This document shows positions 12,607 through 37,877 of a stretch of 39,707 nt of DNA, piece by piece. The stretch spans positions 1 to 39,707 of the forward strand of contig JAEUSJ010000001.1 of NCBI GenBank assembly GCA_016788215.1, written 5' to 3'. This DNA comes from a bacterium. Lineage in GTDB: Bacteria; CLD3; SB21. Position numbers and translations under genes: made by a program. A model generated the notes under the pieces. The model made no database searches and was not told the DNA's origin. It saw nothing but the letters and a program-made list of their open reading frames with translations. Each line of letters starts with the position of its first letter. Position 1 is the stretch's first letter.

Positions 12607-12678
12607 AGCCACAAGCGGGATTTGAACCTGCGACCTGCTGTTTACGAAACAGCTGCTCTACCGCTGAGCTATTGTGGC
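12607..12678 (-). tRNA. tRNA-Thr (anticodon CGT)
   Basis: A 72-nt cloverleaf on the minus strand. The acceptor GCCACAA pairs with TTGTGGC, with discriminator T. The anticodon stem GCTGT/ACAGC encloses loop TTCGTAA with anticodon CGU (complement of 12644–12646), which reads ACG. The T stem GCAGG/CCCGC carries an A·C mismatch at its middle pair (51–63); the rest is canonical. CCA is not encoded. A promoter lies just upstream at 12699–12727. Confidence 0.94.
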
Positions 12679-12698
12679 ATTAATTATTTTGCGGTGCA

Positions 12699-12727
12699 AA
12701 GATAGATATTTCATTTTTCAAAATCAA
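12699..12727 (-). promoter_or_regulatory. Promoter for tRNA-Thr
   Basis: On the minus strand TTGATT (12727–12722) and TATCTT (12704–12699) are spaced by exactly 17 bases. This puts a start site about 14 bases before the mature tRNA 5' end. Confidence 0.7.
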
Positions 12728-12785
12728 ATTATTTTATTTGAATTAATATTCCTCAAGATCGGCTTTCGATGCGCTCTGTTTGGGC

Positions 12786-12814
12786 TTGCAAATCTATATT
12801 TACTTATTTATATT
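12786..12814 (+). promoter_or_regulatory. Promoter for the HEPN/ligase operon
   Basis: TTGCAA (12786–12791) and TATATT (12809–12814) are spaced by 17 bases. The predicted start is near 12821, about 54 bases before the HEPN ATG. This supports a start at 12875, because a longer reading frame would begin upstream of the promoter. Confidence 0.6.
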
Positions 12815-12874
12815 TTTTTAGTTCATACCTTGCACTACCGTTTCTTCGTTTTCTTCCGTTTAACAATTAACCAC

Positions 12875-13258
12875 ATGCTAGTTGACGAAAAATTTCGAAT
12901 TGGAACTCTTGTCGACAAAGCCAATGAAAGCCTCGGGGCAGCTGAATTGCTTATGGACGCGCAGCTGTACGAAGAATCTATATTAAGATGTTATCATGCT
13001 GTTTTTTTTACGCTGCGGGCATTCTTAAAAAAAAATAAAATCGAAATAGAAAGAACCTCTGACTCGATACCGGTATTCAAAGCACGCTTTATTGACACAA
13101 AAGTGCATTCTGCAGCGTTGTATGACGATTTGGTAGCCGTGATAAATGCCGGAGGATTTGAAAATCAATTCGGCCAGCTCCCAGCAGATGAATCATTAGC
13201 TCGTGATGTCTATGAAAAAGCAGAACGATTTTATTCCGTACTCACAGATTTAATATAA
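12875..13258 (+). CDS. HEPN domain protein
   Basis: A 127-residue protein beginning MLVDEKFRI, all helical in character. The segment ESILRCYHAVFFTLRAFLK (about residues 35–53) is the core signature of the HEPN (PF05168-type) family, in which SxxRxYYA/HAxF precedes a helix. The RNase motif Rx4–6H of toxic HEPN proteins is not evident, so it is more likely a binding or accessory HEPN. No MNT nucleotidyltransferase, the usual partner, is nearby. It is the first gene of the ligase operon, 14 bases before the ATP-grasp gene. A longer frame opens at 12674 but would run through tRNA-Thr and the promoter, so I use 12875. There is no clear Shine–Dalgarno. Confidence 0.75.
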   Translation: MLVDEKFRIGTLVDKANESLGAAELLMDAQLYEESILRCYHAVFFTLRAFLKKNKIEIERTSDSIPVFKARFIDTKVHSAALYDDLVAVINAGGFENQFGQLPADESLARDVYEKAERFYSVLTDLI

Positions 13259-13272
13259 ATAGAGGAGTCGCC

Positions 13273-14280
13273 ATGTCTGAGATTGCCCGAATAGGCGTTT
13301 TACGGGGAATGGAAACAACTTTTCCTGATGCTTTGATTGCCAATATCAATAAAGTAGCAACAAAAAAAAAGTTAAAAGTAGCCGCTGAATTCATAATGCT
13401 TGGCGGCACGAAAATGAGCGAGCCATCGGGTTACAAAGTGATTATTGACCGAATTTCACATGAAGTTGCCTATTATAGGGCCTATCTGAAAAACGCGGTT
13501 CTTGGCGGAACTGACGTCATCAATAACCCTTTTTGGTGGTCGGCCGATGACAAGTTTTTTAATTATTCTCTTGCAGATCTGATGGGGATACCTGTTCCTA
13601 AAACGGTGATTCTCCCGCACCATCAGCATCCGCCAAACACAACCTCGGAGTCTTTTCGTAATTTGACGTTTCCACTTCCGTGGGACCGGCTTTTTGAATA
13701 CGTTGGTTTTCCGGCATTTCTCAAACCATTTGACGGAGGAGGTTGGCGACACGTATATAAAGTTGAATCAGCCGATGATTTTTTCGAGAGATATAATCAG
13801 ACAGGTGATTTGTGCATGGTATTGCAGGAAAACATAAACTTTGAAGAATATTATCGCTGTTACTGCATAAATAAGAAACACGTACGTATCATGCAGTTTG
13901 ATCCCGGTGCAGAGCCTGTAAACAGATACGTAAAGAATCCAACGCCCCTGGACGAAAAAAAAGCAAAGCAAATTGAAAAATATTGTGTAGACATATGCAC
14001 GGCATTGGGTTATGATCTTAACACGCTTGAATTTGCCGTTAGGGAAGGCATTCCTTATGCAATTGATTACATGAATCCTGCACCCGATTGCGATTACTAT
14101 TCCGTGACTCCTCCCAATTTTGAATGGGTTGTTGATAAGGTTACAGAAATGGCCATTGATCGCGCTTTACACCATCAGCCGTACGCCGGGGAATTACGAT
14201 GGAATCATTTTCTCAATGGCAAGGAATCGGATATGCCAAAGCCTCGAACTGCCAAAAAGAGCAAATCCAATACAGAGTGA
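13273..14280 (+). CDS. ATP-grasp ligase (RimK-like)
   Basis: A 335-residue protein with an ATP-grasp fold, an enzyme class that joins a carboxylate to an amine or thiol through an acyl-phosphate. The start follows AGAGGAG with good spacing. The N-terminal part (about residues 1–110) is the pre-ATP-grasp domain. The nucleotide-binding Lys and glycine loop lie in FLKPFDGGGWRHV (about residue 150–162). The segment MVLQENINFEEYYRCY follows (about 183–198), and the magnesium site is AIDYMNPAPD with Asp265 and Asn268. The Lys-rich C-terminal tail (about residues 318–335) is probably disordered. Substrates cannot be read from the sequence. The permuted ATP-grasp gene begins 11 bases later. Confidence 0.85.
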   Translation: MSEIARIGVLRGMETTFPDALIANINKVATKKKLKVAAEFIMLGGTKMSEPSGYKVIIDRISHEVAYYRAYLKNAVLGGTDVINNPFWWSADDKFFNYSLADLMGIPVPKTVILPHHQHPPNTTSESFRNLTFPLPWDRLFEYVGFPAFLKPFDGGGWRHVYKVESADDFFERYNQTGDLCMVLQENINFEEYYRCYCINKKHVRIMQFDPGAEPVNRYVKNPTPLDEKKAKQIEKYCVDICTALGYDLNTLEFAVREGIPYAIDYMNPAPDCDYYSVTPPNFEWVVDKVTEMAIDRALHHQPYAGELRWNHFLNGKESDMPKPRTAKKSKSNTE

Positions 14281-14291
14281 GAGAATAACCG

Positions 14292-15653
14292 ATGGTTAGT
14301 ATTCCGGAGAGTATCCAATACTATAACGACCTTCTTGAAAAAAACGAATCGAAGATTGCAGATATTTTTTCTGTTTTCGTGAACGAATGTCAGTTGCAGA
14401 AGCTGACCTTTGGCGGACGTTCAATGTACAATTTTGTTCGTCCGAATTTTATTTCCATAGAACAATATGAATACATTCGATACGTCTGCGGCATTTTGCG
14501 GAATACCGTAACTAAATTTAAGAATGCAGCTCTTTCGAACCCTCATATCATGGCTCAGGCAGGCGTTAATGCACGTGAGAAGGAATTGGTTGATATTCAT
14601 CCCGGTTATGATCGTTTGTCCATAACAGCTCGGTGGGATTCCTTCTTGCAAGGGGATTCCCTTAAGTTTGTTGAATTGAATGCAGAGTGTCCCGCAGGTA
14701 TAGCATATTCAGATATTGCGGCTGAAGTTTATGACCGATTTCCATTTGTCATTGAATTTAAGAAAAAATATTCGGTAGAAAAATGTCAGATACGCCAGAC
14801 ACTACTAGACGGTCTTTTAGAAACTTATGAATCCTATACCGGTAACAAGAGAAATAATAAACCCGTAATTGCTATTGTTGACTGGAGAGACGTTCCGACC
14901 TTCACTGAGTTTCAGCTCTTTAAGGAATTTTTTGAGTCAAAAGGTTACGAATGTGTAATAGCAGATCCGCGGGATCTGGTGTATAAAAATAATATCTTAC
15001 GGTTTGAAGATACAAAGATCGATCTTGTTTATAAACGTATTCTGACCAACGATTGTGTTGAACGCCCTGAAGAAACCCAGACCTTGGTTGACGCATACAG
15101 AGATCACAACGTATGCATGATTAATCCGTTTCGAGCTAAGATGGTTCACAAGAAATCGATTTTTGCTGTATTAACACATGAGAAAAACCGGGATATGTTC
15201 AACGGTGAAGAACTGTCCGTTATCTCGAAACATATTCCATGGACCCGTGTAATACAAGAGGAGAAAACGGTCTACAATGGGGCAATAATTGATCTCATTT
15301 CATACATATCATCAAATAAGAACGAATTTGTCATAAAGCCAAATGATGAATACGGAGGCAAGGGGGTTTGTCTTGGGAAAGAAACGTCGGCAGAGAATTG
15401 GAGCACAGTCATTCAAGAAGCCATGTCCGGTGACTTTTATGTAGTCCAGGAACTGGTGCCAATCCCGCGTGTTCCATTTCCAATTGTCGAAGATAACAAG
15501 ATAAAGTATGTAGACATGGTCGTGGATATGGATCCATATGTTTTTGGTGCAAAAGTTGAGGGTATTCTCACAAGATTATCCGCGTCATCACTCGCTAATG
15601 TGACAGCTGGCGGGGGCACAACACCCACATTTATCCTTGATGAAATTCACTAA
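14292..15653 (+). CDS. Circularly permuted ATP-grasp protein
   Basis: A 453-residue protein. ATP-grasp features occur in permuted order. Acidic substrate/metal motifs come in the first half (FVELNAECPAGIAYSD, about residues 132–147; DLVYKRILTNDCV, about 240–252). The Lys/Gly nucleotide-binding segment comes late (FVIKPNDEYGGKGVCLG, about 346–362), then FYVVQELVPIPRVPFP and the C-terminal RLSASSLANVTAGGG. This is the arrangement of the circularly permuted ATP-grasp families related to the ligase half of glutathionylspermidine synthetase. It would form an amide or peptide bond using ATP. It sits between the other two ligase genes in one operon. The exact subfamily and substrate are not recognised. 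Confidence 0.75.
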   Translation: MVSIPESIQYYNDLLEKNESKIADIFSVFVNECQLQKLTFGGRSMYNFVRPNFISIEQYEYIRYVCGILRNTVTKFKNAALSNPHIMAQAGVNAREKELVDIHPGYDRLSITARWDSFLQGDSLKFVELNAECPAGIAYSDIAAEVYDRFPFVIEFKKKYSVEKCQIRQTLLDGLLETYESYTGNKRNNKPVIAIVDWRDVPTFTEFQLFKEFFESKGYECVIADPRDLVYKNNILRFEDTKIDLVYKRILTNDCVERPEETQTLVDAYRDHNVCMINPFRAKMVHKKSIFAVLTHEKNRDMFNGEELSVISKHIPWTRVIQEEKTVYNGAIIDLISYISSNKNEFVIKPNDEYGGKGVCLGKETSAENWSTVIQEAMSGDFYVVQELVPIPRVPFPIVEDNKIKYVDMVVDMDPYVFGAKVEGILTRLSASSLANVTAGGGTTPTFILDEIH

Positions 15654-15698
15654 ATTGTTTTTAAAGATACTTACTTCTTTATGATGATATTTTAAACT

Positions 15699-16823
15699 AT
15701 GACTGAAAAAGTCCCTTTTACTATTGGAATTGAAGAAGAATTTCAGATCGTAGATCCTGAGACGAGGGAATTGCGCTCCCATGTTACAAGCCAAATGCTT
15801 GAAGAAGGTAAATTACTCCTTTCAGAACAGATAAAGATGGAGATGCATCAATCGGTTGTTGAAGTCGGAACGAATATTTGCAGGAATATTCATGATGCGC
15901 GAAAGGAAGTTGTAAAACTCAGAACAGCTATTGCGCAGTTGGCAATGAAAAGGGGATTGAGAATCGTTGCGGCAAGTACTCACCCAATAAGCGATTGGAA
16001 AAGCCAGGAAATCAGCGATCATGACCGCTACAAGGAAATTATCGAAAATATGCAAGATATCGCCAGAGCCAACCTCATTTTTGGTCTGCATATTCATATT
16101 GGGATGCCGGATAACGAAACTTGTATTGCGATTTTGAACCAGATTCGTTATTTTTTGCCGCATGTTCTGGCCATATCGACGAGTTCGCCATTTTGGATAG
16201 GGCGAAACACCGGTTTGAGTTCAATTAGAACAAAAATATTTCAGCGGTTTCCCCGAACTGATTTGCCGCCAGTTTTTGAATCGTGGGCGACTTTTGAAGA
16301 TTATGTAAACCTATTGGTCAGAACGAACTGCATTGATAATGGCAAAAAGATTTGGTGGGATGCTAGGCCGCACCCGAATTTTGGCACTCTTGAGGTTCGT
16401 GTTTGTGATTTACCAACGCGAGTTGATGAAACTATCGCAGTTGCAGCCTTGATTCAAGCTCTAATGTTGACATTATATAGACTGTATATGAAAAATATTT
16501 CATGGCGGATTTATCCGCATCAGCTTATTTCAGAAAATAAATGGCGTGCGAGCAGGTATGGAATAAATGGTAAAATGATCGATTTTGGTAAAAGAGAAGA
16601 AGTGCACACAAAAAACTTAATATATGAATTGATTCAATTCGTCGATGATGCGGTAGAAGAACTAGGCAGCCGTAATGAAATTAACTATATTTACAAGATA
16701 TTGGACGAAGGCACGAGTTCCGATCGGCAAGTCAAAGTATTTAATGAAAGCGGACGAGATCTAAAAGCAGTTGTCGACTACTTATTAACCGATACACTTA
16801 CCGGATTATCATTAAAACCATAA
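15699..16823 (+). CDS. YbdK-type carboxylate–amine ligase (GCS2 family)
   Basis: A 374-residue member of the glutamate–cysteine ligase type 2 family (YbdK/COG2170), of typical length. GCS2 proteins have a glutamine-synthetase-like fold and activate a carboxylate with ATP. Visible landmarks are GIEEEFQIVDPET (residues 10–22, with metal-binding glutamates), EMHQSVVEVGTNIC (about 48–61), the metal/substrate segment FGLHIHIGMPDN (about 127–138), SSPFWIGRNTGLSS and the Arg-containing FGTLEVRVCDLPTRVDE (about 228–244). E. coli YbdK has weak glutamate–cysteine ligase activity, so glutathione-like or other amide products are possible. It lies 45 bases after the permuted ATP-grasp gene, with no obvious Shine–Dalgarno. 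Confidence 0.9.
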   Translation: MTEKVPFTIGIEEEFQIVDPETRELRSHVTSQMLEEGKLLLSEQIKMEMHQSVVEVGTNICRNIHDARKEVVKLRTAIAQLAMKRGLRIVAASTHPISDWKSQEISDHDRYKEIIENMQDIARANLIFGLHIHIGMPDNETCIAILNQIRYFLPHVLAISTSSPFWIGRNTGLSSIRTKIFQRFPRTDLPPVFESWATFEDYVNLLVRTNCIDNGKKIWWDARPHPNFGTLEVRVCDLPTRVDETIAVAALIQALMLTLYRLYMKNISWRIYPHQLISENKWRASRYGINGKMIDFGKREEVHTKNLIYELIQFVDDAVEELGSRNEINYIYKILDEGTSSDRQVKVFNESGRDLKAVVDYLLTDTLTGLSLKP

Positions 16824-29882: not shown

Positions 29883-30353
29883 TTACCATTTGAGTTGTAT
29901 CAAGGCGGAATTGATTTTTGCAAGCGGGATTTCAATCAGTTCCGGCAGATTTTTTTTCTTACCTTTGAGCTTCAAATGGAGCTTATCTTCGATGACATTT
30001 TCTATCGTGCCTTTGCATTCTTTGCTCGATTTGTCCCTGTCTGTGTAATTTACAAGAATCTCACGTCCAATATTTTTTCGAAACTGCCAGTCTTCTTTAA
30101 TTGGCCTTTCGACTCCCGGTGAAGATACTTCAAGAACGTATTCGGAGTCTATGGTATTATCCTGCTCCATTTTGTCAGCAATTTTTCTACTAAAAGCCTT
30201 ACATTGATCGATTGTAATTCCGCTTTCACTGTCAAGAAAGATTCTGATCATCTTGCGCGACTGGACACTTTTTAAGTCAATTTCCACAACTTTAAAATCA
30301 GTATTTTCAATAGCCCAATGCACTGTTTCTTGTATTTTTGCCACAAAGTCCAT
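29883..30353 (-). CDS. rimP: Ribosome maturation factor RimP
   Basis: A 156-residue RimP (YhbC), needed for 30S subunit maturation. I choose the ATG at 30353, giving the family-like start MDFVAKIQETVHWAIENT. The N-terminal domain contains VVEIDLKSVQSRKMIRIFLD and the conserved ITIDQCKAFSRKIADKME, then YVLEVSSPGVERPI (about residues 75–88). The C-terminal SH3-like domain ends the protein. The frame stays open to 30446, but that part is not RimP-like and contains the promoter and leader hairpin, so I exclude it. It is the first gene of the nus operon. Confidence 0.96.
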   Translation of the reverse strand: MDFVAKIQETVHWAIENTDFKVVEIDLKSVQSRKMIRIFLDSESGITIDQCKAFSRKIADKMEQDNTIDSEYVLEVSSPGVERPIKEDWQFRKNIGREILVNYTDRDKSSKECKGTIENVIEDKLHLKLKGKKKNLPELIEIPLAKINSALIQLKW

Positions 30354-30361
30354 TTCATATC

Positions 30362-30395
30362 TACAAAATAAAAAAGTGGGTCTTGAGAACCCACT
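30362..30395 (-). terminator. Attenuator hairpin in the rimP–nusA leader
   Basis: On the minus strand AGTGGGT (30395–30389) pairs with ACCCACT (30381–30375) over seven bases and is followed by TTTTTTATTTT. It lies between the predicted promoter (30453–30425) and the rimP start codon at 30353, so it would stop transcripts before the first gene. This makes it an attenuator or a leader terminator overcome by an unknown signal. Confidence 0.75.
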
Positions 30396-30424
30396 CCGTA
30401 ATAGGTAAAAGCAAACTGAGGCTA

Positions 30425-30453
30425 AAGATAAAGAAATAAAGTTCATTTTGCAA
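30425..30453 (-). promoter_or_regulatory. Promoter for the rimP–nusA–infB operon
   Basis: On the minus strand TTGCAA (30453–30448) and TATCTT (30430–30425) are spaced by 17 bases. The predicted start near 30418 gives a leader of about 65 nt that contains the attenuator hairpin. Confidence 0.7.
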
Positions 30454-30530
30454 GTAAAATTTATCGTATAATAACAATTTTCTTGCTTTTTCTGGCTTGA
30501 ATATTTACATTGGCGACACCAAGGTAAATT

Positions 30531-30558
30531 GGGGACATAGCTTCCCGCCTCAGTCGGC
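30531..30558 (+). repeat. Partial copy of the tRNA-Ala 5' end with hairpin
   Basis: GGGGACATAGCT (30531–30542) repeats exactly the first 12 bases of the tRNA-Ala at 30627, preceded by AATT versus AAAT. Right after it CCGCC and GGCGG (within 30545–30560) form a short hairpin. No further tRNA sequence follows. It may be the remnant of a deleted tRNA or of a recombination event. Confidence 0.5.
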
Positions 30559-30626
30559 GGACAAGTATTCTTCGAATGGAGAAAGTTAGTAATTAAAAGT
30601 TATCTTCATAGCTCAATGTATTAAAT

Positions 30627-30699
30627 GGGGACATAGCTCAGCTGGGAGAGCGCAAGGCTGGCAGTCTTGAGGTCAGGGGTTCGATCCCCCTTGTCTCCA
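30627..30699 (+). tRNA. tRNA-Ala (anticodon GGC)
   Basis: A 73-nt cloverleaf. The acceptor GGGGACA (30627–30633) pairs with TGTCTCC (30692–30698), with A as discriminator. The third pair is G3·U70, the main alanine identity element. The anticodon loop CTGGCAG carries GGC, reading GCC/GCU. The T arm AGGGG-TTCGATC-CCCCT is perfect. CCA is not encoded. It is a single plus-strand gene between two minus-strand operons, with its own terminator. Confidence 0.97.
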
Positions 30700-30706
30700 C
30701 ACCCAT

Positions 30707-30742
30707 AATGACTAAGCATTTATTTGCTTGGTCATTTTTTTT
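30707..30742 (+). terminator. Terminator of tRNA-Ala
   Basis: AATGACTAAGCA (30707–30718) pairs with TGCTTGGTCATT (30725–30736) with a single T·G pair over a six-base loop, followed by Ts through 30742. It lies seven bases after the tRNA. Confidence 0.88.
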
Positions 30743-30813
30743 GTACGGCTGACTTTTTTGGAAGGTTCCATGCTCCGATCAAATCAAGTAGCTTCGACTG
30801 TCCATTTTTAATA

Positions 30814-31446
30814 TCAATGCGCTTTAAGGTCAAATTTCTTCTCACCTGCATAAACTGAAATCGGCAGATGATTTTCTTTCGGAGGGTAAGGGCAGTTATA
30901 GTTATCACTGTAAGCGCACCACGGATTATAGGCGGAATTGAAGTCCAAAATGTAATCGTCGGTCGTTTCATGTAATGTCAATTCTATATATCGACCCGCT
31001 GAATAAGTTTCATTCCCGTTCGTTGAATCTTTAAATGGAACAAAAAGATAGTCAGCGTGCCCTTCAATTGCAGGTTTTGGTCGGTACGCGTTCAATTTCT
31101 GCCGGCCATGTAAATCGAATTCAAAATAGCCATATTCAATATAATGTTTGATCTTGCCTTTGGAAGTAACCATGTCTAATTCCCGCGGCTTATCATATTT
31201 ATTCAATTTTGCATAGAATACATATGTTGAATCAAAAACATAATAATCCAAACCACGGAACTTTATCTTCAAAGTGTCACTTAATGGCGACTCTGAAGAT
31301 GCAAAGTATTTATCTTTTTCAATCCTTTCCCGGTTTATCGAGAATACGATCTTCTGCAATTCACCAGAGGAAAGCCTCTGATTGGGCAACTTTTCGCAGG
31401 CCGATAATAAGGCGGCCATGTAACAAAAAATTAAAACGTGATTCAT
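30814..31446 (-). CDS. DUF1684 lipoprotein
   Basis: A 210-residue protein of the DUF1684 family with a lipoprotein signal: hydrophobic residues 4–14 and lipobox Leu-Ser-Ala-Cys with Cys17. The family core is in the second half: GRYIELTLHETTDDYILDFN, then AYNPWCAYSDNYNCPYPP with conserved Cys residues, and ENHLPISVYAGEKKF at the C-terminus. The function of the family is not known; it would sit on a membrane facing the periplasm. Its start is 3 bases after the selD stop, so the two are surely co-transcribed. Whether that has meaning for selenium use is open. Confidence 0.85.
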   Translation of the reverse strand: MNHVLIFCYMAALLSACEKLPNQRLSSGELQKIVFSINRERIEKDKYFASSESPLSDTLKIKFRGLDYYVFDSTYVFYAKLNKYDKPRELDMVTSKGKIKHYIEYGYFEFDLHGRQKLNAYRPKPAIEGHADYLFVPFKDSTNGNETYSAGRYIELTLHETTDDYILDFNSAYNPWCAYSDNYNCPYPPKENHLPISVYAGEKKFDLKAH

Positions 31447-31449
31447 AAA

Positions 31450-32493
31450 TTAATCCAGTATAATTTTCCCGGTGCCTTCAGTTACAAACCCTATAATGGC
31501 TGCCGAACTATAACCATAGTTACGCAAGGCAGTAACTAAATTATCGGCAAGATTTTTTTGGATCGCTATCAGTAACCCGCCCGAAGTCTGGGGATCATAA
31601 AGTAGATTATCGGCAGCCTCATCATTTATTTTTGGTTGAATTAGACTATCTCCAATTAATAGACGGTTTAACCTATTTCCTTTGGTTAAGTACTTCTTAT
31701 GAGAAGCAAATTTCCTTGCTTTCTTAAAAAACGGGACCTGGCTCGAAACTATTGTTAGATTAACTCCGCTTGCTGTCGCCATTTCAAAAGCGTGTCCGAG
31801 TAAACCAAAACCTGAAATATCGGTTGCGGCACTTGTCTTAAATTGTCGCATCACTTCTGCACCTCTGTCATTCAACTGAATCATCGACTGTACGATCTCT
31901 TTCACGTCCGAGGGCGATGCATCCCCTTTCTTGATTGCAGTAGCTGTGACGCCCGTACCGATCGGTTTTGTTAAAACTAAAACGTCGCCCGGTTTTGCAT
32001 TTGCATTTGTAATGATGTCATGTGGAGAGATGATTCCAGTAACCGAAAGTCCATATTTGATTTCTTTGTCCTCGATGGAATGGCCGCCCACTAATACCGC
32101 GCCGGCTGCTTTGATACGCTCGGCTCCTCCTTCCATAATTTTTTGCAATACTTCGATGGGCAACTCTTTAGTTGGGAAACACACTATATTCAAAGCCGTT
32201 AGCGGCTTACCTCCCATCGCATAAATATCCGACAGCGCATTGGAAGCCGAGATTTGACCGAAGGTATACGGATCATCCACGATCGGAGTGAAAAAATCTA
32301 CGGTTTGAATGAGCGCGGTATCGTCATTGAGACAATATACCCCGGCATCGTCGGAAGTTTCCATTCCAACCAACAAATTATCATCGGTGAATTTCGGCAG
32401 ACCTGCCAAAACGGTCCTCAAATCAAGAGGACTCATCTTGCTGGCTCAACCTGCGCATTCAACAGTTTGTGTTAGTCGAATTTTCTTTTTCAT
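31450..32493 (-). CDS. selD: Selenide, water dikinase (SelD), itself a selenoprotein
   Basis: A 347-residue selenophosphate synthetase, which makes selenophosphate from selenide and ATP for Sec-tRNA and selenouridine synthesis. Read from ATG at 32493, the N-terminus is KKKIRLTQTVECAG, then an in-frame TGA (minus strand 32448–32446, residue 16), then ASKMSP. This aligns with E. coli IRLTQ…AGCGCKISP: the TGA falls on catalytic Cys17 and Lys19 on Lys20. Downstream are the conserved ETSDDAGVY, TVDFFTPIVDDPY, GQISASNALSDIYAMGGKP, GGHSIED, TKPIGTGV and DPQTSGGLL. The start after TGA (ATG 32436) has no Shine–Dalgarno and would lack the active site. It lies between recN and a DUF1684 lipoprotein gene. 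Confidence 0.93.
32392..32432 (-). promoter_or_regulatory. Candidate SECIS hairpins downstream of the selD UGA
   Basis: Two stem-loops follow the UGA on the minus strand. The first, GTCCTC (32432–32427)/GAGGAC (32419–32414) with loop TTGATTT, puts its loop 20–26 nt after the UGA, within the usual bacterial range. The second, TTTTGGC (32411–32405)/GCCGAAA (32398–32392), has the loop AGGTCT, the same loop as the E. coli fdhF SECIS, but starts 42 nt after the UGA. Which one SelB uses cannot be decided by eye. Confidence 0.6.
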
Positions 32494-32515
32494 GTAATTT
32501 GGAATCTGAATTATT

Positions 32516-34219
32516 TTATGAGTCGAGACTTGAAACAAGCTCTCTGGCATTCTTTAAGGTAACGTCCGTGACTTGCTCTCCGCCCAGTAATTTAGCCACT
32601 TCACGTATTTTATCATCCTGCGAGAGTTTATTAATTGAGGTGACCGTTTTGTTTTTAATAAAGTTCTTTTCAACGGAATAATGTGATTGAGAAAAGCTTG
32701 CAATTTGCGGTAAATGGGTGATACAAATCGTCTGATGAGATTGCGCAAGATGGTATAATGACTTGCCGACGGATTGCGCAATGCGTCCGGAAATGCCAAC
32801 ATCAATTTCATCGAAAACTAAAGTAGGAATCTGATCGGACCCCGCCAGCGCGGATTTTAGACTTAGCATAATGCGCGACACTTCACCCCCGGATGCAACC
32901 TTGACCAGTGGTTTCGGCGATTCTCCTAAATTAGTGGAGATCATAAATTCTACGAAGTCCAGGCCAGTTGATGACGCGTCAACATGAACGCCGTTCACTG
33001 TGATGAAACCTACAGGGTTTTCAATGTATCTGATTTCTGTTTTAAAGAGGGCGTGTTCCATACCTAAGTTCCGCATTTCGATCACAACTTTTTTGTCGAG
33101 TTCAAGAGCAAATTTACGTCGTTGTGCTGTTAACGCAGCACAGAGTTTAACGTAATTTCCAATCTCCTCATCAAGTTGCTTACGGAGTTTATTCAATTCA
33201 AAATCAAAATTATCCGATATATTAATGGCTTCCTCGATTTGAACTTTCTTTGCAAGTATTTCATCGATGGATCCATATTTTTTTTTAAGTCGCTGGATGG
33301 CCGCAATCCTCATTCTAATTTCCTCAAGCCGCTCCGGTTCAAAGGTTATTTTTTGATGGTAATCACCGACCCATCGTGATACCTCTTCCAACGTAATTTT
33401 TGCTGTGATGAATTGGGAAATAATATCATTTAGTCGTTCGTCGACTTTACTAATTTCTTCAAAAGCATGATACGTTTCACCCAAAATATCCACGATCGAT
33501 CCTTCCGTGTCATACAGGGCATCGTATATTTTTTTTGTCAGTTCAAAAAGTTTTTCAGAATTCGAAAATATCTTTTCTTCCTGTATTAATCTTGTGTCCT
33601 CATTGATTTCCGGCGAAATATCCTTAATCTCTTTTAGTTGATGTTGAAAAACTTCGCGTTTTTCAAGATAAGTTTGTCTTTGGCTTTCAAGCTCGCCAAT
33701 TCTATTCTTGCTCTCGCCTATCCGCTTAAAACTTTGTTTGACTTCGCTTGTCACAGACTCAAGACGTCCGTATGCATCCAGGATATCCACGTGAATTTCC
33801 TGATGCAGCAGCGACTGATGGTCATGTTGTCCGTGAAGATCAACAAGTAAATCACCTATAGACTTAAGAAGCGAAGTCGTAATGAGCGTATCGTTTACAA
33901 AACATCGATTCTGGCCTTTAAGTGAGATTTCGCGACGAATCAAAATCTCATTTTCAGGAACCTCGATATCGTTGTCTTGAAGCAAACTGTGTAACCCATG
34001 GTTGTTTTTAATCGTAAACGTTCCTTCGATTACTGATCGCTCGGCGCCGCTACGGATATTGTCAGTCGTGGCCCGTTCTCCAAGGATCATGGATAATGCG
34101 CCAAGCAGTATCGACTTTCCTGCGCCCGTTTCGCCGGTAATGATATTTAATCCAAGTTCGAACTGAATTTCGGCCTGCTCGATCAGTGCAAAGTTCTTTA
34201 TACTGAGCGTTTTAAGCAT
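32516..34219 (-). CDS. recN: DNA repair protein RecN
   Basis: A 567-residue RecN, an SMC-like ATPase acting in double-strand break repair. The N-terminal SMC-type head begins MLKTLSIKNFALIEQAEI and has Walker A GETGAGKS at residues 29–36. A long coiled-coil middle (about residues 155–370) follows. The C-terminal head has the signature KVASGGEVSRIMLSLKSAL (about 442–460) and Walker B TLVFDEIDVGISG (about 467–479). The length is typical. It lies 47 bases after ribH, and its stop is 22 bases before the Sec-containing selD start. Confidence 0.97.
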   Translation of the reverse strand: MLKTLSIKNFALIEQAEIQFELGLNIITGETGAGKSILLGALSMILGERATTDNIRSGAERSVIEGTFTIKNNHGLHSLLQDNDIEVPENEILIRREISLKGQNRCFVNDTLITTSLLKSIGDLLVDLHGQHDHQSLLHQEIHVDILDAYGRLESVTSEVKQSFKRIGESKNRIGELESQRQTYLEKREVFQHQLKEIKDISPEINEDTRLIQEEKIFSNSEKLFELTKKIYDALYDTEGSIVDILGETYHAFEEISKVDERLNDIISQFITAKITLEEVSRWVGDYHQKITFEPERLEEIRMRIAAIQRLKKKYGSIDEILAKKVQIEEAINISDNFDFELNKLRKQLDEEIGNYVKLCAALTAQRRKFALELDKKVVIEMRNLGMEHALFKTEIRYIENPVGFITVNGVHVDASSTGLDFVEFMISTNLGESPKPLVKVASGGEVSRIMLSLKSALAGSDQIPTLVFDEIDVGISGRIAQSVGKSLYHLAQSHQTICITHLPQIASFSQSHYSVEKNFIKNKTVTSINKLSQDDKIREVAKLLGGEQVTDVTLKNARELVSSLDS

Positions 34220-34266
34220 CGCAATGGAACGTTTTATTTATGGATAGAATGATAAAGGCAAGTATG

Positions 34267-34728
34267 TTATTTTATTTGTTTCAATAGATTCACCATTTCA
34301 ACAGCCGTTAAAGCCGCATCCCAACCTTTATTACCGCTCTTAGATCCGGCGCGTTCAATAGCCTCTTCCAGCGTATCGCATGTAAGAACGCCAAAAACTG
34401 TTGGGACGCCCGTTTGCAGCCCGACTTGGCCAATTCCTTTTGCGGCTTCACCTGCAACATAGTCGAAATGGGCGGTTTTTCCGCGAATAACAGCACCTAA
34501 ACAAATAACGGCATCGTATTTTTTCGTTTGCGCGATTCTAAGCGCCGTTAGCGGAATTTCAAATGATCCCGGCACTTTAACGACGTCGATATTTTCCGAA
34601 TTTCCGTCGTGACGAATGATGCAATCCGTTGCTCCTTCTAATAGTTTGTCCGTTATGAAACTATTAAAACGGCTGACAATAACTGCATACTTGTGATTTT
34701 GCGCTGAAAGCTTTCCCTCGAATTTCAT
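34267..34728 (-). CDS. ribH: 6,7-dimethyl-8-ribityllumazine synthase
   Basis: A 153-residue lumazine synthase, the penultimate step of riboflavin synthesis; it forms pentamers or 60-mer shells. I choose the ATG at 34728, which has a GAGG Shine–Dalgarno six bases upstream, over a TTG four codons earlier. Landmarks are [19 protein letters not shown] (about residues 16–34), [11 protein letters not shown] (about 52–62), [20 protein letters not shown] (about 77–96, with the catalytic His in AHFDY) and [15 protein letters not shown]. Other rib genes are not adjacent; ribF is about 10 kb away in another operon. Confidence 0.96.
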
Positions 34729-34746
34729 AAATATCCTCAATGTTTT

Positions 34747-35697
34747 TTAATAGGTAAATCGTATAGTAGGCATTGTGATTAATTCATTTTGAGACAGTTT
34801 CTGTTCAAGTCGAAAAGACAAACTGAGTTTAGTTGCATCTTCTTTGTTCTTTCGTTTTACAATCCACGCTGCATCCGTTAAACTTAAAAGGTGGTTAATC
34901 ATCAGCATACCGGTCATTCCGCGCGCCGTGCTCAGGTAATCATTGCTTTTAATACGCATACCACGATAGTCTATCATCAAAGGCGTCAGGTTGTGCCTCG
35001 TGTACCCTGTCGAAAAATCCGGACTCGGGTTATACATAGCATCGGCCCACCCAAGCGCAAATTGTTCCGGATATTTGTAAATCATTTCATAATATTGCTG
35101 ACGTGAATTTTTATAAAGATGATGAACGGAAACCCCGGTCTTGGTGCCCCATACATTTTCCGCAGACTCCAGCAAAGTATAATTAATTCCGGTGTCCTTT
35201 CGGCCTAAATCTCCGGGGCCTATCTCAAAATTCGGATCGTTTTGTAGTGATGTTTCCAAAAACATGAGATACTTATCCACGTCCCAATTCTTGTCGGCAA
35301 ATTTCTCATATTTTCTCTCGAACTTCTTTCCTTTATTTTGATTATGAAAATAAAGAACCCACCCTGTTATTTCTAGGGCTAAAAACGTCGCACCTTTTAT
35401 CAAACTTTCACGCTCTTTTTGGGCGTACAGCTGGCCACTGCCGGGAACGACTGCCGACATGCTCATAGCCAAAAAAATAGATTTCTTTTGATGGCCTGAA
35501 CCGGAAATACTCAAGTAAGATTCCTGAAAATCCGTATGCTTTTTTAATGCATAAAAAGGGCGACGCAAGGAGTCAATGTGAAACCGGCTCAAATGATGAA
35601 ACGCAAGAAGCGTTTTTGTTGGGGCAGTTTTTTCATCTACAGCCAAAGCATCCTTACACAACAGTAAGGTTATAAGACTATAAAGTATTAGTTTCAA
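34747..35697 (-). CDS. DUF5683-like exported/membrane protein
   Basis: A 316-residue protein starting with a signal peptide (MKLILYSLITLLLCKDALA). The segment SMSAVVPGSGQLYAQKERES (about residues 79–98) is the PGxGQxY signature of DUF5683-type proteins of the FCB group. It is followed by a hydrophobic stretch (about 100–118, GATFLALEITGWVLYFH). A second hydrophobic area lies near 265–282. The C-terminus (LSLSFRLEQKLS…MPTIRFTY) ends in an aromatic, beta-strand-like tail, suggesting an outer-membrane or periplasmic role. No enzyme motif is seen. It is 18 bases upstream of ribH and 29 bases after the GWxTD gene. Confidence 0.7.
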   Translation of the reverse strand: MKLILYSLITLLLCKDALAVDEKTAPTKTLLAFHHLSRFHIDSLRRPFYALKKHTDFQESYLSISGSGHQKKSIFLAMSMSAVVPGSGQLYAQKERESLIKGATFLALEITGWVLYFHNQNKGKKFERKYEKFADKNWDVDKYLMFLETSLQNDPNFEIGPGDLGRKDTGINYTLLESAENVWGTKTGVSVHHLYKNSRQQYYEMIYKYPEQFALGWADAMYNPSPDFSTGYTRHNLTPLMIDYRGMRIKSNDYLSTARGMTGMLMINHLLSLTDAAWIVKRKNKEDATKLSLSFRLEQKLSQNELITMPTIRFTY

Positions 35698-35726
35698 TTC
35701 ACCATGCTTGATGTTAACGTCAACTT

Positions 35727-37877
35727 CTACTTCTGAATCGTTTCTTCTTTTTTCTTTTCTTCGTCAAGAATAGTTAGATTGATAACGCTGCTTGATTCCT
35801 TTGAAGAATTAAGATCCTTGACTTTAACTTCGAGCGTCGCCACACCGGTTGGTAATTCGCTTATATCGAAGCCAATATATTCTTTTTCAGTCGTTGATTT
35901 GCCTTCTTTTGTAGTGATCGATGAGGTGGAAGCCTCCTGTTTATTTCCAAATACTCCGGTAATCGCTTTAAGAAAACCCTGACCGCCTTCAGCCATTTTG
36001 ATAGAATATGAAATTTGATATGAGCTTTTTCCTTCATTATTCAATGTCAGGTTATAAACCTCATAATAAACAGTCAATGGCTTATTTTTTAGAAGACCGG
36101 CAGCAGGATTAGGTACTACTTTAAGAGTTGATTTGGGTTTGACAAACTTTTCTCTTGTTATCGTATTGTCGACGTATTGCGCTATTTCAATATCACTTAC
36201 TGTAAGTGTATCTGAGGAATAATCACGAACAGACACTACAAATTGATATATCCCGACACGGTCCTTTTCGTTATTTCTTATTTCAAGTGCCGCGACATAT
36301 TTACCTGGTGGAATTTCATTGTCGAGTTGGTCGATATAAAAGTGAGAGGTTATCTCGTTTCCCCCTGCTGTAATATTATAATCCCGATCCAGTTTCATTA
36401 TTTCATCATATTTCAAATCAAACAATGCAAAATTAAGCTTCAGACCGGTTGAGAACTTATTCGTTTCCGAAATGCTGGGGACAAAATTTAGTTGATTAAA
36501 TGGAACGACGTAATAAAACTCCAGCCTCGAATCTTTTTTGTTACCTTTAAATGAGGCGAAGTTGCAATTGATCGGCAGATGCGGTGCGCCTACGTCAAAA
36601 ATGAAATGTTGTTTGTTTGCATATGTCAAATTGAAAAGATTATCCTGCAGATTCGTATTTGTATTGAGAATTCCAGCGGCAAATTGGGTTCGGTTTATTG
36701 CATCAGCAGAAGTAGATCGACTTCTTTCGAATGCATCAGTGGCCCGTTCTCGGCGAACATCGGCCTCAGTTTTGATTCTTAACGCAATACGTTGATAGTA
36801 AAAATTATAAGATGATCTTTCATTATATAATTCTACCACGTCCTCAATTTTTGCATCTCTTTCAACAGCGTCGAATAAAGTGCGGATTTCGAAATGCCCC
36901 CCCATTTCAACCAAATCAAAGAAAAGATCGGTCTTTATATTGTCATAAAACCACGACTCATTATCTTTTATCGTTGGCATGGGTTTCCCGTAATAAACAC
37001 GGTCTGGCTTACCCAATCGAACGTACAGCACACCTCTGTCGTCATACCATGGCTTGAACGGCTTGCTATAATTCTGTCTTGCGTAGTTCAGCCGCTTATA
37101 GTGCTCAACCAAACGTTGATTGACTGGATCTATCGGGTTTGGATCACGGCGTTTCCAAAAAGTTTTTAAAAATTCCAGTTTTTCAGTATTGGACCTTAAC
37201 GCATCCCATTGTTTCGTTTCGTCTTTGGTAGCAATATCTTTAACGTCAATAAAGACTTTTTCAATTTTTGTCGAATCCCTTATGTCATTCAGCCCGCCAT
37301 AAAATGCTTCGCAGGCCTCTTCATCCTTACCGATATCCATAAATACCAATGAAAGTTGAATAAGTGGGAACGTGTCTTCAAGATTTATAAGTGCACCTTG
37401 TTTGTATGCGTCAATTGCCAGATCATACTCCCCCATCTCACGGTAGGTTGAACCTAATTGAAGCCAAACATTTGGTAAATCAAATGCCAGAAACCGGTCG
37501 TCTTTAGAAATCACGTGTTTGAATGAGGCTTCTGATTCTCTAAGTTTGCCTTCAAATCTTTGAAGCAAGCCTTTCAGAAAAATTCCTTCAGTATCTTCCG
37601 CATTGTAATTAAGAACTTTGGCGATGTATTGAGATGAGCGTTTGAGGTTGTCACCAAAAAGTTTTGAAAAAATTCGAAGTGCACCGGACATGTTTTCATA
37701 GTTTTTCAGCTCTGTCAGTGCCAGTTTCTTATAATATTGAGATGAATCTTGTGAGTTCACATGCGCCTTACTTACTCTTTTCATCACGATCTCACATGAT
37801 TGAACGTCGCTTTGTGCGAAACCGAAGTGTAAAACTGAAATTACGACAAGACACAAAGAAAACAAACGCATAATCAC
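35727..37877 (-). CDS. GWxTD-domain protein with TPR repeats
   Basis: A 716-residue exported protein with a signal peptide (about residues 1–21, LCLVVISVLHFGFAQS). TPR-like repeats cover roughly residues 40–215. The GWxTD domain follows: LEFLKTFWKRRDPNPIDPVN (about 234–253), then an HYKRLNYARQNY helix, and the strand DDRGVLYVRLGKPD (about 282–295). The namesake Gly-Trp-x-Thr-Asp reads Pro-Trp-Tyr-Asp-Asp here. The rest is beta-rich with no recognised enzyme motif and a Lys/Glu-rich end. The family is largely confined to FCB and relatives, with unknown function. Its Shine–Dalgarno AAGGAGTG is strong, and it heads the operon behind its own promoter. Confidence 0.85.
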   Translation of the reverse strand: MIMRLFSLCLVVISVLHFGFAQSDVQSCEIVMKRVSKAHVNSQDSSQYYKKLALTELKNYENMSGALRIFSKLFGDNLKRSSQYIAKVLNYNAEDTEGIFLKGLLQRFEGKLRESEASFKHVISKDDRFLAFDLPNVWLQLGSTYREMGEYDLAIDAYKQGALINLEDTFPLIQLSLVFMDIGKDEEACEAFYGGLNDIRDSTKIEKVFIDVKDIATKDETKQWDALRSNTEKLEFLKTFWKRRDPNPIDPVNQRLVEHYKRLNYARQNYSKPFKPWYDDRGVLYVRLGKPDRVYYGKPMPTIKDNESWFYDNIKTDLFFDLVEMGGHFEIRTLFDAVERDAKIEDVVELYNERSSYNFYYQRIALRIKTEADVRRERATDAFERSRSTSADAINRTQFAAGILNTNTNLQDNLFNLTYANKQHFIFDVGAPHLPINCNFASFKGNKKDSRLEFYYVVPFNQLNFVPSISETNKFSTGLKLNFALFDLKYDEIMKLDRDYNITAGGNEITSHFYIDQLDNEIPPGKYVAALEIRNNEKDRVGIYQFVVSVRDYSSDTLTVSDIEIAQYVDNTITREKFVKPKSTLKVVPNPAAGLLKNKPLTVYYEVYNLTLNNEGKSSYQISYSIKMAEGGQGFLKAITGVFGNKQEASTSSITTKEGKSTTEKEYIGFDISELPTGVATLEVKVKDLNSSKESSSVINLTILDEEKKKEETIQK

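Follow-up and report, generated by a model that had tools for sequence, protein, structure and literature searches.

A selD gene with a conserved in-frame UGA predicted to encode active-site selenocysteine in an uncultured CLD3 bacterium

The selD locus and its in-frame TGA

The window, the whole 39,707-nucleotide stretch of contig JAEUSJ010000001.1 that was analyzed, belongs to a bacterial genome of the GTDB lineage CLD3; SB21 (GCA_016788215.1, here G000; 3,732,068 bases in 621 contigs, 94.14% complete, 8.75% contamination). On its reverse strand, selD lies between genes for a RecN-like protein and a DUF1684 protein (Table 1), and the order ribH-recN-selD-DUF1684-rimP-nusA-infB (window 29883-34740) is common to the congeneric genome G002 and to G003, another member of the class. 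Translation of 32550 to 31450 with TGA read through gave one continuous frame in which TGA occurs once, at 32448-32446, exactly where the preliminary description had placed it. From the ATG at 32493 this frame encodes MKKKIRLTQTVECAG-U-ASKMSPLDLR..., a protein of 347 residues in which U is residue 16. The standard-code ORF in the mechanical ORF list opens four codons past the TGA; standard ORF calling, as this gene shows, drops the SelD active site.

Table 1. Features of the selD locus in window coordinates
Feature	Position	Strand	Remarks
selD	31450..32493	-	347 codons with TGA as Sec; start ATG 32493-32491; stop 31452-31450
In-frame TGA, residue 16, predicted Sec	32446..32448	-	Based on translation, relatives and chain alignment
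Internal ATG, start of standard-code ORF	32434..32436	-	Met replaced by Leu in G003, G007, G008
Apical stem-loop of SECIS-like hairpin	32414..32432	-	6 bp, 7-base loop, 13 bases past TGA
43-base stretch tested for SECIS-like hairpin	32403..32445	-	-19.0 kcal/mol; z -4.54 versus synonymous shuffles
Upstream neighbor, RecN-like (RecF/RecN/SMC domain)	32516..34219	-	Same strand as selD
Downstream neighbor, DUF1684 domain	30814..31446	-	Begins 3 bases past selD end

The read-through protein matched the curated NCBIfam selD model TIGR00476 over its full length (positions 1-309 of 311; 384 bits, cut-off 125), and solved SelD chains matched as well. In phmmer alignments the residue encoded by the TGA paired with Cys17 of chain 3u0o (E. 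coli SelD), which lies in the motif GAGCGCK, as the preliminary description had proposed, and also with a Cys of chain 2yye. U16-A-S-K19 was thereby aligned with C17-G-C-K20 of 3u0o; a catalytic Cys or Sec and a Lys three residues on are essential in SelD. An in-frame UGA that lines up with Cys or UGA in homologues is the pattern of a bacterial selenoprotein.

Elsewhere UGA is an ordinary stop: it terminates 168 of 683 frames of at least 300 codons in 80 stretches of G002 and, within the window, 7 of 28 selected ORFs. The tRNA-Trp of the window has the anticodon CCA. Ordinary stop use elsewhere agrees with Sec decoding of the one codon in selD. The same use of UGA as a terminator, together with the standard-code start at ATG 32436, is what can be cited for an alternative reading in which the codon in selD is a true stop, the gene being either broken or restarted at that ATG to give a protein that lacks the active-site loop at its N-terminus.

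Conservation of the codon and the decoding machinery

SelD was found in five of the eight class relatives searched, with one TGA in each of the five. These orthologues shared 86% (G002), 81% (G001), 56% (G008), 55% (G007) and 49% (G003) identity with the window protein, and all carried the TGA at the same codon, within the motif CAG-U-ASK; its retention across such distances shows that it did not arise by chance. A nonsense mutation, raised earlier as a possibility, predicts a sense codon in close relatives, and there the TGA was kept at that codon. Two further features stand against a true stop: the N-terminus ahead of the TGA was kept in sequence and frame in all five relatives, and the Met that follows the TGA in the window was Leu in G003, G007 and G008, so that a restart there is not the conserved feature.

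In G004, G005 and G006, members of the same family that are 91-100% complete, SelD was absent; the searches returned either nothing or cross-matches (5.7e-8 and 1.2e-7). None of SelB, SelA and tRNA-Sec scored over its cut-off there (best tRNA-Sec scores of 42.1, 46.4 and 40.3 bits). The trait is thus confirmed in an uncultured bacterial family but is patchy, present in G000 to G003 and absent as a set from G004 to G006; within the former group, SelB of G001 was in pieces on separate contigs and SelA of G003 was a fragment only, each below cut-off. A relative of the DUF1684 gene persisted near rimP in the SelD-less G006, so the link between DUF1684 and selD is not selenium-specific. No recN was found in the stretches of G005 and G006 beside rimP-nusA-infB, and no clean empty selD site was seen there or in the G004 stretch, which ends just past rimP.

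The preliminary description had predicted a working SelA/SelB/SelC system from the presence of a Sec-containing SelD and had named the absence of selB and selC as evidence against its proposal. Both were found in the same genome: a complete SelB (363 bits, cut-off 242) and a tRNA-Sec (65.1 bits, cut-off 47) with the anticodon UCA as read by ARAGORN. Contig C244 ends within SelA, leaving the N-terminal part (model positions 4-188), which for that reason fell below its cut-off; the gene was complete in the congeneric G001 and G002. The genome therefore holds the SelA, SelB and tRNA-Sec genes expected of a selenoprotein-encoding organism, SelA in part. Since the tRNA-Sec model also scored above threshold in 5 of 14 control genomes and in G010 and G020, two genomes lacking any SelA match, a tRNA-Sec hit was counted only together with the other parts.

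With an estimated contamination of 8.75% in a bin that is 94.14% complete, the contigs bearing the Sec machinery might be contaminants in the bin of an organism unable to decode UGA. The stretches holding SelB, SelA and tRNA-Sec, however, aligned to congeneric G002 at 93.1, 92.7 and 93.2% over 16.0, 9.3 and 9.6 kb, much as the window itself did (90.1% over 16.3 kb), so contamination does not explain them, and G002 itself holds all four parts (SelD, SelB, tRNA-Sec and SelA). We regard such a binning artefact as scarcely credible. Genes near SelB and SelA included those for PBP4, a histidine kinase, a PorV-family protein and fumarase, and no neighbor had an obvious tie to selenium. Near selB lies a gene for a molybdenum-hydroxylase-type flavoprotein with FAD_binding_5 and CO_deh_flav_C domains (L159:9838-11565; G000:C177). 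Certain molybdenum hydroxylases carry a labile selenium cofactor.

A SECIS-like hairpin after the UGA

The 43 bases after the UGA folded at -19.0 kcal/mol (z -3.76; none of 200 dinucleotide shuffles as stable). The significance of this simple test varied with window length, z being -2.81 for 56 bases, -1.84 for 66 bases (12 of 200 shuffles as stable; not significant) and -3.22 for 86 bases. Because coding sequence biases simple fold tests, we shuffled synonymous codons within each gene 200 times, keeping both the protein and its codon usage. None of the 200 shuffles of the window gene was as stable as the native sequence (Table 1), and similar bias was seen in G002 (z -3.68; 0 shuffles as stable), G001 (z -3.22; 1) and G003 (z -2.56; 3), with weak bias in G007 (z -1.46; 19) and G008 (z -0.74; 47). 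Synonymous divergence just after the UGA was suggestively low in the three congeneric genes (random p 0.03, 0.03 and 0.12), and the shuffling was used instead.

The same test was applied to a collection of 110 SelD loci, made up of the best 30 of one search and the best 80 of another, of which 109 had a recognized start; the remaining locus (L043) was off pattern and was left out. The mean z was -1.97 for 57 Sec-SelDs versus +0.14 for 52 Cys-SelDs (Mann-Whitney p 9e-16, a value that overstates independence because the sequences are related and many of the Cys genes come from Paenibacillus and its kin), and z was below -1 in 77% of the former versus 10% of the latter. At a control site 80 codons downstream, the means were -0.07 (Sec-SelDs) and -0.40 (Cys-SelDs). 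Synonymous shuffling thus separated the collected Sec-SelDs from the Cys-SelDs and could help to vet other UGA candidates. In the window gene, hairpin stability hinges on synonymous codon choice, which supports reading the UGA as Sec.

The bSECIS model, as set out in PMC13188914, has an apical loop of 3-9 bases, an upper stem of 4-16 bp, 16-37 bases from the UGA to the loop, an energy of at most -7.5 kcal/mol and a G as the first or second base of that loop, though some bSECIS elements deviate from it. The window hairpin lies within the loop, stem, spacing and energy limits (7-base loop, 6 bp, 19 bases, -19.0 kcal/mol) and misses the G rule, its loop being UUGAUUU with G third.

Decoding genes in the genome and hairpin bias after the codon both add to the case against a true stop, which we judge very improbable. 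We instead propose, with a probability of about 97%, that SelB carrying Sec-tRNA(Sec) decodes the UGA of selD, aided by the hairpin just downstream, and so would place Sec at residue 16, the N-terminal active-site position (UASK). Such an enzyme would convert selenide and ATP to selenophosphate for use by SelA, and would thereby help to make the amino acid that it contains. The gene, its codon, the alignment to the catalytic Cys, the conservation, the machinery genes and the hairpin bias were observed directly; Sec incorporation and SelD enzyme activity are what these features predict. Both steps have precedents in the account of PMC13188914, in which the SECIS hairpin helps SelB to deliver Sec-tRNA to the UGA, and SelD supplies SelA with selenophosphate, using the Sec in its own N-terminal loop.

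Relation to known SelDs and other uses of Sec decoding

Sec-containing SelDs are long known: 19% of the SelD genes in the reference set described in PMC4561486 carry Sec, always at this position, and FdhA and SelD are given as the most widespread selenoproteins in PMC1794560. Measured against what these two sources describe, the window selD is an ordinary example, alike in its Sec site, in the accompanying SelA, SelB and tRNA-Sec, and in the hairpin after the UGA, with no notable difference, and it leaves the general understanding unchanged. The preliminary description had set UASK against CGCK; the Lys three residues on stood, but the contrast proved nothing unusual, as UASK was the commonest Sec motif collected (25 of 57), followed by UAAK (22 of 57), and CGCK was the motif in 48 of the 52 Cys-SelDs. 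Ser in place of Cys19 is accordingly ordinary among Sec-SelDs. Compared with the Cys-SelD of 3u0o, the window protein belongs to the same fold family and aligns over most of its length, but has Sec for Cys17 and Ser for Cys19; hairpin bias was absent from the 52 collected Cys-SelDs and present in the window gene. A SelD domain is also common to the SelD-NADH dehydrogenase-like fusions described in PMC4561486, from which the window gene differs in being unfused and in having the TGA. Some distant relatives encoded longer, stop-free SelD frames (about 740-865 residues), which we take to be putative fusions of this kind.

In the account of PMC1794560, every selenoproteome had FdhA or SelD, and several species that have the selenouridine enzyme YbbB contained no selenoprotein other than SelD. 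YbbB/SelU (tRNA selenouridine synthase) had no match in any of the nine genomes searched here, a set that did not include G006. Searches of the source genome for four families with known selenoprotein members, which counted only stops within the matched stretch, found none inside the matches to FdhA-like proteins (6, none over cut-off), AhpC-TSA (7), CMD (2) or ArsS-like radical SAM proteins (2, one over cut-off). Three formate-dehydrogenase-like matches were named as NapA, an FdhF/YdeP-family protein and a PhsA-like protein, and two others were weaker. A full TIGR04167 match with no stop inside (L191; G000:C602:7168-8079), found likewise in G001 and G002, is apparently the Cys form of this radical SAM family with Sec members.

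A codon-usage scan covered 1,674,004 bases of G002 (44%) and 77 kb of the source genome. It recovered 814 of 1195 mock sites (about 68%) and was blind to Sec followed by fewer than 30 codons; it at first missed SelD, which became the positive control once thresholds were loosened. Candidates numbered 82 of 52,976 TGAs in one run and 35 of 15,676 in the other, and those that had a redox-type motif or lacked a nearby start codon, 33 (two of them SelD) plus 11, were judged by eye. Within the scanned part SelD was the sole convincing case, the others having mostly been judged by eye; eight candidates compared with Pfam had no domain across the TGA, three of them having no match. One of the eight (L261:6625-7307; G002:C29) was a nitroreductase with its N-terminal part in another frame, beside a T run, and represents a frame break, either genuine or introduced by assembly. 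Comparison of TGA-containing frames between the source genome and G002 was dropped, the genomes being so alike that non-coding frames align too.

As no SelU and, in this partial search, no second selenoprotein was found, the Sec machinery may serve few proteins besides SelD, and the selenoproteome is likely small. It is conceivable, though we think it unlikely, that SelD is the only selenoprotein of the genus and, with no SelU, that Sec decoding forms a self-serving loop feeding its own enzyme; a selenium-cofactor trait, or a handful of selenoproteins beyond the part that was scanned, is likelier.

Two other gene groups in the window were noted. At 34747-37877, a gene for a GWxTD-domain protein with TPR repeats adjoins a 316-residue ORF without a Pfam match. 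At 12674-16823, a small cluster, perhaps a peptide or thiol ligase set, encodes a HEPN-domain protein and a circularly permuted ATP-grasp protein, along with a GCS2 glutamate-cysteine ligase and one ORF that has no Pfam match at 1e-5.
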